Positions 20,178 to 25,936 of a stretch of DNA of 37,491 bases are shown here, one piece after another (position 1 is the stretch's first letter; every line of letters begins with the position of its first letter). Source of the DNA: an uncultured Polaribacter sp. (lineage in GTDB: Bacteria; Bacteroidota; Bacteroidia; Flavobacteriales; Flavobacteriaceae). Where the stretch lies: positions 1 to 37,491 of the forward strand of contig CAJXTJ010000007.1 in the NCBI GenBank assembly GCA_913061165.1. Direction: 5' to 3'. The position numbers and the translations under genes are program-made. The notes below the pieces were generated by a model. That model saw only the letters and a program-made list of their open reading frames with translations, was not told where the DNA came from and did no database searches.

Positions 20178-20570
20178 TCAGACTCAAATTTACAATTTTT
20201 AAAATCCATTTAAAAGCTTTTTAGTTATTTTGGTCTAAAACTATTAACATTTGTTAATTTCTTAAAAATGCTTTAAAACGTCTAAAAACATCTTTAAAGT
20301 CAATTTAAATACTTTTTAATTCAATCTAAAATAAGAATTACTTTTTAAGGTCTTAAATCTTTTATTTCTGACATTAAGTTTCATGAAATTGGTTAAAAGA
20401 ATACTAGTTATCTCTTATTGAGTGCATAAATAATTAATAATTCATAATTTTTAGATTCACTTATATTGTTGAATAGATATGATTATGAGTTTATTTTGTT
20501 TTATTACTAATTAATTATCAATATTTTGTAGATAATTCAAAGGTTATATAAAATCATAGAAAAGAGGTTT

Positions 20571-20597
20571 TTGAACCATTTTTTCTATATATATTTG
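20571..20597 (+). promoter_or_regulatory. Predicted promoter of the gat-aspS operon and its leader
   Basis: TTG 20571-20573 and TATATTTG 20590-20597, upstream of the leader ORF. Confidence 0.5.
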
Positions 20598-20614
20598 CTC
20601 GTAATCTATTTATA

Positions 20615-20662
20615 ATGAGAATCAACAATAACAATCGTAATTTTAATAATCCTAATTTATAG
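20615..20662 (+). CDS. Asn-rich leader peptide (MRINNNNRNFNNPNL), 8 of 15 residues Asn
   Basis: atg aga atc aac aat aac aat cgt aat ttt aat aat cct aat tta tag, directly upstream of alternative antiterminator/terminator structures. Confidence 0.8.
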   Translation: MRINNNNRNFNNPNL

Positions 20663-20722
20663 GACGGAAGGTTGTTGTTTAAATATATAAAAAGCCTTCC
20701 AAAATTTGGAAGGCTTTTTTTT
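20624..20722 (+). promoter_or_regulatory. Predicted ribosome-mediated transcription attenuator (Asn codons; alternative helices)
   Basis: Helix 1:2 AACAAUAAC (20624-20632)/GUUGUUGUU (20671-20679), 9 bp with one GU; antiterminator GGAAGGUU (20666-20673)/AAGCCUUCC region (20693-20700); terminator AAAAAGCCTTCC/GGAAGGCTTTTT (20689-20719). Confidence 0.75.
20688..20722 (+). terminator. Attenuator terminator about 20 nt upstream of the first operon gene
   Basis: AAAAAGCCTTCC AAAATTT GGAAGGCTTTTTTTT. Confidence 0.88.
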
Positions 20723-20740
20723 GAATCAAAAATTAAAGAC

Positions 20741-21005: not shown

Positions 21006-22400
21006 ATGGAGTCGCAAATACATAAAATTCATCAGCAACTGGTGAACAAAGAAATATCTTGTATGAGTTTGGTGCAAGAAAAATTAAATTTATTAAAACA
21101 AAATACACACAACTCTGTAAATTCTTTATTGGAAGATTCCGCTTTGGCTTCAGCTAAAAAAGTAGATGCTAAAATAGAAAACGGACAAGAAATTGGTTTG
21201 TTAGAAGGAATTCCGTTTGGAATTAAAGATGTGTACATGTTGCAAGGAACGTATACTACTGCTAGTTCAGACTTGTTAAAAAAATATAAAGCAGCGTATA
21301 CCGCAACTGCTATTCAGAAACTATTAGATGCAGGTGCAATTCCTTTGGTAAAAGAAAATTGTGATTCTTTTGGGCACGGTTCTTCATCAGAAAACACCAT
21401 TTTCGGAGCCGTAAAAAATGCTGTAAATCCAGATTTAGTTGCTGGCGGTTCTAGTGGAGGTTCTGCTGTAAATGTTGCAAAAGACAATACGGTTTTTTCA
21501 ATTGGTGGAGATACGGGTGGTTCTATTCGTCAGCCGGCAGGGTATAATAAAATTTACGGATTTAAACCCACCTACGGTAGAATTTCTAGATATGGCTTAA
21601 TGGCGTACGCTTCTTCTACAGATTGCGTTGGGCCTATTGCAAAGTCTCTTGAAGATGTGCGAATTGTCTTAAACGTGATGAGTGGAAAAGATCCAAGAGA
21701 TCAAACGAGTTATGTTTCTGAAGCGGTTTCAGCAGATTTGAAATCCTCTGGAATAAAAACAGTTGGTTATTATAAAAACTTCATCGAAAGTGATGCAATA
21801 AGCACCAAAATAAAAGCAGATTTTTTAGCAACCTTAGAAAAAATAAAAGCGAAAGGAATCGCAGTAAAAGCATTAGACTTTTTTGATGCTGATATTTTAG
21901 TTTCTACCTATTATACGCTGGCAATGGCAGAAACTGCTTCAAATTTATCTCGTTTAGACGGCACAAATTACGGCGCAAGAATAGAAGGAGTTAATTTAAA
22001 AGATACCTATTCAATTACGAGATCAGAAAATTTTTCAGAAGAAACAAAAAGAAGAGTTGTTGGTGGAAATCAAGTTTTATCGCAAGGTTTTTCAGATGAA
22101 ATTTATTTAAAAGCACAGAATTTAAGAAATCAAATATCGGCAAGATTTACAGAAGATTTCAAGGATGTAGATATTGTTTTATCTCCAGTAACTCCAGCGA
22201 TTCCTCCAAAAATAGGAGAGAGTTTGCAAGACCCTTTGGCAATGTACTTGTCAGATGCATATACGGTTGGTTTTAGTTTGGGAGGTTTGCCAGCGTTAAC
22301 AATACCAAAAGGAACTTCTACAGGCTTACAAATTACAGCAGACAAGAAAAAAGATGCGGAAGTTTTACAATTCGCTAACTTTTTAAACGAAATTTTATAA
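21006..22400 (+). CDS. gatA: Aspartyl/glutamyl-tRNA amidotransferase subunit A-like amidase
   Basis: Amidase-signature triad regions GIPFGIKD, VAGGSSGGSAVNVA, and GGDTGGSIRQPA; next to GatB-AspRS. Confidence 0.85.
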   Translation: MESQIHKIHQQLVNKEISCMSLVQEKLNLLKQNTHNSVNSLLEDSALASAKKVDAKIENGQEIGLLEGIPFGIKDVYMLQGTYTTASSDLLKKYKAAYTATAIQKLLDAGAIPLVKENCDSFGHGSSSENTIFGAVKNAVNPDLVAGGSSGGSAVNVAKDNTVFSIGGDTGGSIRQPAGYNKIYGFKPTYGRISRYGLMAYASSTDCVGPIAKSLEDVRIVLNVMSGKDPRDQTSYVSEAVSADLKSSGIKTVGYYKNFIESDAISTKIKADFLATLEKIKAKGIAVKALDFFDADILVSTYYTLAMAETASNLSRLDGTNYGARIEGVNLKDTYSITRSENFSEETKRRVVGGNQVLSQGFSDEIYLKAQNLRNQISARFTEDFKDVDIVLSPVTPAIPPKIGESLQDPLAMYLSDAYTVGFSLGGLPALTIPKGTSTGLQITADKKKDAEVLQFANFLNEIL

Positions 22401-25788: not shown

Positions 25789-25819
25789 TTGTATAATTTA
25801 AAAATCTAACCTATTTTTG
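25789..25819 (+). promoter_or_regulatory. Predicted trp operon promoter
   Basis: TTG 25789-25791, 20-nt spacer, TATTTTTG 25812-25819 (TAnnTTTG), just before the leader ATG at 25827. Confidence 0.6.
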
Positions 25820-25826
25820 TTCCAGT

Positions 25827-25877
25827 ATGAGTATAACAACAAAAAATACATGGTGGTGGAACTCTCTTAATTCATAA
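25827..25877 (+). CDS. trpL: trp operon leader peptide (MSITTKNTWWWNSLNS)
   Basis: Short ORF with three consecutive TGG codons (25851-25859), upstream of a terminator and trpE. Confidence 0.9.
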   Translation: MSITTKNTWWWNSLNS

Positions 25878-25936
25878 GTGAGAACTAATCCTATATTTAA
25901 AATATAAAAAAGGCTTATCTCACGATAAGCCTTTTT
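25862..25936 (+). promoter_or_regulatory. trp attenuator with mutually exclusive helices
   Basis: 1:2 helix CTCTCTT (25862-25868)/AAGTGAG (25876-25882); antiterminator GTGAGAacTAAtCC (25878-25891)/GGcTTATCTCAC (25912-25923); terminator GGCTTATC/GATAAGCC plus T-run (25906-25936). Confidence 0.85.
25906..25936 (+). terminator. trp attenuator terminator
   Basis: AAAAAGGCTTATC TCAC GATAAGCCTTTTT; 12 nt before trpE. Confidence 0.92.

Follow-up and report, generated by a model that had tools for sequence, protein, structure and literature searches.

The operon gatC-gatA-gatB::aspS of an uncultured Polaribacter sp. is very probably controlled by a ribosome-mediated transcription attenuator that senses Asn-tRNA(Asn) and is composed of four RNA regions. 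In the stretch of 37,491 nucleotides analysed here (the window), an intrinsic terminator is located between a promoter and the first structural gene, gatC, and follows a leader open reading frame (ORF) whose peptide, MRINNNNRNFNNPNL, carries Asn at 8 of its 15 residues. This is the only ORF of leader length with at least 50% Asn in the window, and 60 Markov windows contained none. The structural genes encode, as judged by homology, the enzymes that make or charge the sensed amino acid (GatCAB and an AspRS fusion), and AsnB is absent. The conservation of the leader, its alternative pairings, its position, the synonymous change of its codons and the absence of AsnB can all be read from the sequences compared below.

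Layout of the leader and its predicted switch

A first-pass annotation of this DNA had placed a promoter-like box at 20590-20597, a 15-codon leader ORF with 8 Asn codons and a strong terminator ahead of the first gene, and our reading bore these out almost letter for letter (Table 1). The TAnnTTTG box was found 5' of the leader ATG in 39 of 39 aligned leaders, with a spacing of 10-19 nt in 37 of them. The terminator core spans 20692-20716, with a U8 tract at 20715-20722, and 18 nt separate it from the gatC start. Since gyrB lies upstream in the divergent orientation on the opposite strand, this terminator ends no plus-strand gene upstream; a generic terminator scanner called it on the minus strand only, the T run having been absorbed into the stem. 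The three competing pairings that had been proposed all exist, although one coordinate had to be corrected, with the terminator 5' arm AAGCCUUCC at 20692-20700 and not 20693-20700, and the Asn-codon helix proved to depend on many interchangeable registers instead of a single 9-bp one. Two elements were absent from that annotation, namely a hairpin at the stop codon and a UUUU:GGAA helix (UUUC in most relatives), which lets region 1 reach over the antiterminator strand too. The Asn-codon partner GTTGTTGTT likewise overlaps the antiterminator strand of region 2. Upstream, a conserved stretch precedes the -7 box at about 20560-20597 and at the equivalent site in other leaders (e.g. AAAAATAGTGTNTAGTCTATTTATTC); it carries no obvious -33 TTTG and is possibly a candidate regulator site.

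Table 1. Coordinates of the leader elements and operon genes in the window
Feature	Position	Strand	Basis or remark
-7 promoter box, Bacteroidota type, TATATTTG (TAnnTTTG)	20590-20597	+	Read from the sequence
Leader ORF, MRINNNNRNFNNPNL	20615-20662	+	ATG at 20615, stop TAG at 20660-20662; Asn codons are the proposed sensor
Region 1, Asn codons AACAATAAC	20624-20632	+	Partner 20671-20679; folding and alignment
Region 1 extension	20641-20644	+	Partner GGAA at 20667-20670; RNAalifold, 37 leaders
Stop-codon hairpin, TCCTA/TAGGA	20650-20664	+	Arms 20650-20654/20660-20664; paired in 100% of cells
Region 2, antiterminator strand GGAAGGTT	20666-20673	+	Pairs with 20692-20700 in 96.6% of cells
Region 3, terminator 5' arm AAGCCTTCC	20692-20700	+	Common to terminator and antiterminator
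Region 4, 3' arm of the terminator GGAAGGCTT with U tract	20708-20722	+	Paired in 99.1% of cells
gatC-like subunit, 87 aa	20741-21004	+	TIGR00135 E 2.4e-4, under its cut-off
gatA	21006-22400	+	TIGR00132 436.9 bits (cut-off of 481.1 not reached); Pfam Amidase 379 bits
gatB fused to second aspS, 1113 aa	22400-25741	+	GatB joined to a complete bacterial AspRS

Positions 20603-20726 folded into the terminator and the Asn-codon/GUUGUUGUU helix, with an energy of -29.4 kcal/mol (z = -4.45) that 0 of 200 shuffles matched, while a transcript lacking the terminator 3' arm formed the antiterminator alongside the stop-codon hairpin. RNAalifold on 37 leaders recovered the 1:2 helix (Asn codons plus UUUC:GGAA), the stop-codon hairpin and the terminator. 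In the folding model, the antiterminator uses the same 5' arm as the terminator, excludes it, and cannot form while a ribosome occupies the stop codon. We simulated the switch by simple ribosome-footprint masking of the nascent transcript. Before the 5' arm was made, region 2 paired with the Asn-codon run, in any register, with a probability of 0.99. Once it was made, the probability of the antiterminator was 1.00 with a ribosome on the Asn codons and 0.00 with a ribosome at the stop codon, which points, within the model, to the stop-codon ribosome as the clear terminating signal. With no ribosome the value was 0.99, so that the untranslated state is uncertain and depends on kinetics beyond the footprint-masking model. 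At equilibrium the terminator always won in the full-length leader RNA, as expected of a kinetic switch.

We infer that the leader is translated, that ribosomes stall on it, that transcription terminates and that charged tRNA is sensed, an attenuation logic that the first-pass annotation had already drawn and that the comparative data strongly support. When Asn-tRNA is ample, the ribosome would arrive at the stop codon and mask GGAAGG, located 4-9 nt beyond it, and the terminator would fold. When Asn-tRNA is scarce, the ribosome would stall at the Asn codons, GGAAGGUU would join the terminator 5' arm, and this antiterminator would allow the operon to be transcribed. The fused AspRS and GatCAB would then convert Asp-tRNA(Asn) to Asn-tRNA(Asn), the sensed signal. 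The proposed feedback loop would be unusually short, as the controlled enzymes produce the same Asn-tRNA that the leader reads.

Conservation of the leader among relatives

The source organisms are marine bacteria, and the leader is conserved in about 40 relatives. We fetched 80 named loci, chiefly from Polaribacter, Flavobacterium, Lutibacter and Algibacter-like genera. The pattern M-x-x-N(4-7)...NFNNP-x-x was present upstream of gatC at 39 loci (two of them on the same Hyunsoonleella contig), in agreement with the Asn-rich orthologous ORFs that the first-pass annotation had suggested looking for; 37 leaders were aligned. An independent covariance-model search of 400 family genomes returned strong matches in 37, at 94-124 bits, followed by a next best score of 50.6. 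All strong matches but one fell in GatA-positive genomes (36/37), the contig of the remaining genome stopping soon past gatC (G125), and gatC was immediately downstream in 30 of the 30 strong-match loci read. In a phylum sample of 396 genomes, the leader model (R1) scored strongly for the Polaribacter window alone and for nothing outside the family. The weak matches (50.6 bits or less) that we inspected had no comparable leader, the closest of them (L154) containing short Asn-containing ORFs that fail the pattern. One leader (G273) begins with GTG.

On the GatA tree the leaders fall into two main clades, and their presence and absence require at least 11 state changes, 5 of them forced by well-supported branches. 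GatA-positive lineages without a leader are many (Flavobacterium, Lutibacter, Tamlana). Nearly all of the 23 leaderless regions that we printed have an ordinary promoter close to gatC, and the missing leaders are therefore mostly not truncated records, with absence undecidable at four loci where the contig ends too near. Sister species with a plain promoter provide natural controls for the attenuator. Three leaderless Polaribacter relatives (L071, L088 and L099) have TTTGATTTGAATTTACTGAATTAA in common upstream of gatC, with an ATG right before it in two of the three and, past it, a hairpin ending in a run of T, all 5' of a plain gatC promoter.

Variation within the leader follows its codons and its pairings. 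The core positions are Asn in 35-37 of the 37 leaders and change almost exclusively between AAT and AAC; Ile or Ser is rare and Lys was found at none of them. The residues F, N, N, P on the C-terminal side are nearly fixed, while the first residues and the last are free to vary, and RNA pairing accounts for the fixation of the Phe and Pro codons. The pairs of the 1:2 helix, hairpin and terminator were kept in 97.5% of cells and those of the hairpin and antiterminator in 97.9%, as compared with at most 67% when the pairs were slid. Compensatory changes, which the first-pass annotation had also proposed as a check, were seen in the stop-codon hairpin (C-G to U-A in L021, L047, L051 and L052, which occupy three separate positions on the tree) and in the terminator (G-C to A-U in L059 and L083). 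Additional leaders carry a U-G intermediate (L117) and a further A-U pair in the terminator (L125). The antiterminator arms are retained and almost invariant, and so yield no covariation evidence. For one conformation, overall pairing and covariation ranked above all but 8 of 500 shuffles, and the counts of doubly changed pairs showed no excess standing out against shuffles.

The operon and asparagine supply

The genes of the gatC-like/gatA/gatB-aspS operon named in the first-pass annotation are present, but GatB and AspRS form one fused protein. Wherever the linker lay inside one match, the frame ran through it without interruption (78 of 78 relatives), and all 78 fusions carry the RDHG motif; we found no report of a GatB-AspRS fusion in the literature searched. 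One AspRS position has a role in tRNA(Asn) discrimination, with His in non-discriminating enzymes. In the fused AspRS this site is taken by the His of RDHG, conserved in all 78 fusions; P. aeruginosa AspRS (4WJ3, a transamidosome structure) has His there too, while Leu is found in the E. coli and T. thermophilus (1EFW) enzymes and Lys in the housekeeping AspRS of the Polaribacter genome. The fused AspRS is predicted to have non-discriminating activity, charging tRNA(Asn) with Asp. The tRNA-Asn has a U1-A72 pair, which was considered as a discriminating mark and rejected, as GatA-negative genomes share it.

In two samples of genomes from the family, 15 of 101 and 59 of 400 were GatA-positive. 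Homology supports the earlier prediction that the operon makes Asn-tRNA by transamidation, with the qualification that the genomes also encode AsnRS, GlnRS and a separate AspRS. Indeed, AsnRS, GlnRS and a second AspRS were detected in 15 of 15 GatA-positive genomes tested, and AsnA was absent from all 15. GatCAB for Gln was rejected because GlnRS occurs in every one of these genomes, and a role of the operon as an AsnRS replacement was rejected because AsnRS does. In the 400 genomes, canonical AsnB was found in 0 of 59 GatA-positive versus 298 of 341 GatA-negative genomes, an exclusion with a random chance of about 10^-42 when shared ancestry is ignored. In 10 of the 15, no synthetase of the AsnB family exceeded the cut-off, and 5 had divergent forms only; these divergent proteins have open frames of 572-640 aa (G002, G006, G034, G044 and G062). 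The operon thus differs from a generic GatCAB route and, given that AsnRS, GlnRS and a separate AspRS are also encoded, looks like an asparagine-biosynthesis operon that would stand in for AsnB as a dedicated Asn-supply route. Control by the attenuator could account for switching between scavenged and self-made asparagine in cells with AsnRS but no AsnB.

Asn-rich leaders before asnB, alternatives and known systems

Prompted by the gatC leader, we scanned 99 regions upstream of canonical asnB. In 7 genomes (L220, L239, L240, L244, L252, L253 and L312) from four GatCAB-less genus groups, an Asn-rich ORF starting with ATG stands ahead of a terminator, a count that is descriptive because the thresholds were fixed after a first look. 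The same combination occurred 0 times on the reverse strand of the 99 regions and in 0 of 495 Markov controls. The encoded peptides (MSLNNNIRINNNSLQT and relatives, MFLNYSNNNNNNYYPRR, MATFNFNNNNNNRMP and MLRSIFNNNLNNNNGNP) cannot be aligned with the gatC leader and have only Asn richness in common with it, which points to repeated origin and suggests that attenuators of this kind arise readily. Within one genus, the 5' arm of the terminator differs by a C-to-T change, and both of its partners have changed to match (L220 vs L240). Asn-codon attenuation has probably arisen several times within one family, on two non-homologous routes (gatC-gatA-gatB::aspS and asnB), with the gatC case sensing a charged tRNA that is the direct product of the controlled enzymes.

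In an AT-rich region where terminators are common, the Asn-rich ORF could be a chance product and the hairpin an ordinary terminator that ends a small RNA or transcription arriving from upstream. We consider this extremely improbable and largely refuted by conservation: the leader is kept in two clades with almost only synonymous change of its Asn codons, it adjoins gatC wherever a strong-match locus was read, the Markov windows held no comparable ORF, and the upstream gene, gyrB, is on the other strand. The near fixation of F, N, N, P might instead indicate that the leader peptide itself is functional and control by stalling secondary. This is very unlikely, as the Phe codon pairs with GGAA, the Pro and stop codons build the hairpin, with Ser tolerated when a compensating change occurs, the terminal residues vary freely and the asnB leaders share nothing beyond Asn richness.

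There is equally little probability that the RNA is a riboswitch or T-box that binds uncharged tRNA or a metabolite directly, with no translated leader. The leader RNA does alternate between exclusive structures, and the aspS/gatCAB genes of Clostridium acetobutylicum are reportedly under T-box control (Saad 2012, JBC, and 2013, PNAS, both cited in PMC4206432); an Asn-tRNA sensor on such an operon, of which the first-pass annotation knew no example, had thus reportedly been described before. That T-box resembles the gatC leader in tying a transcript leader to tRNA-dependent Asn formation by the same enzymes, but binds tRNA directly without translation. In the gatC leader, by contrast, no Rfam family passed the gathering threshold, T-box included, and no T-box match was listed at E up to 5; the best sub-threshold matches were Phe_leader and Thr_leader, an aptamer-sized fold is missing, and the short ORF is intact with synonymously changing codons.

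A translated, Asn-sensing leader would extend a textbook class, the leader-peptide attenuators. Like the trp, his, thr, phe and leu/ilv leaders and Bacteroid-trp (RF01692), it has a short ORF rich in the product codon, and it shares with them the overlapping exclusive helices 1:2, 2:3 and 3:4 and a U-tract terminator just 5' of the first gene; unlike them, its codons are Asn and its target is an operon for tRNA-dependent amidation. In Rfam and the literature searched, we found no leader-peptide attenuator specific for Asn and none that controls a tRNA-dependent pathway to an amino acid. The class is classical; what appears new is its Asn specificity, its target and the fact that it arose repeatedly. 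Two routes to Asn-tRNA coexist, with asparagine synthetase lacking, in Deinococcus radiodurans, Thermus thermophilus and Bdellovibrio bacteriovorus (PMC4206432). These bacteria likewise combine AsnRS, GlnRS, GatCAB and an AspRS able to charge tRNA(Asn), an ability predicted from sequence in our case; in Polaribacter, unlike in them, GatB and AspRS are one polypeptide in an operon with a predicted attenuator. Bdellovibrio also lacks both AsnA and AsnB, and an operon supplying Asn in place of AsnB agrees with what was proposed there (PMC4206432). In Flavobacterium psychrophilum, of the same family, leader-peptide attenuation was likewise inferred, in general terms, from structured 5' regions before amino-acid operons, and the main-text passages name neither an Asn leader nor a gat operon (PMC9723704).

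Bacteroid-trp (RF01692) did not match the gatC leader, and its only match in the window, at 25807-25919, is a second attenuator 5 kb downstream, located ahead of the trp operon, with a terminator and with MSITTKNTWWWNSLNS at 25827.
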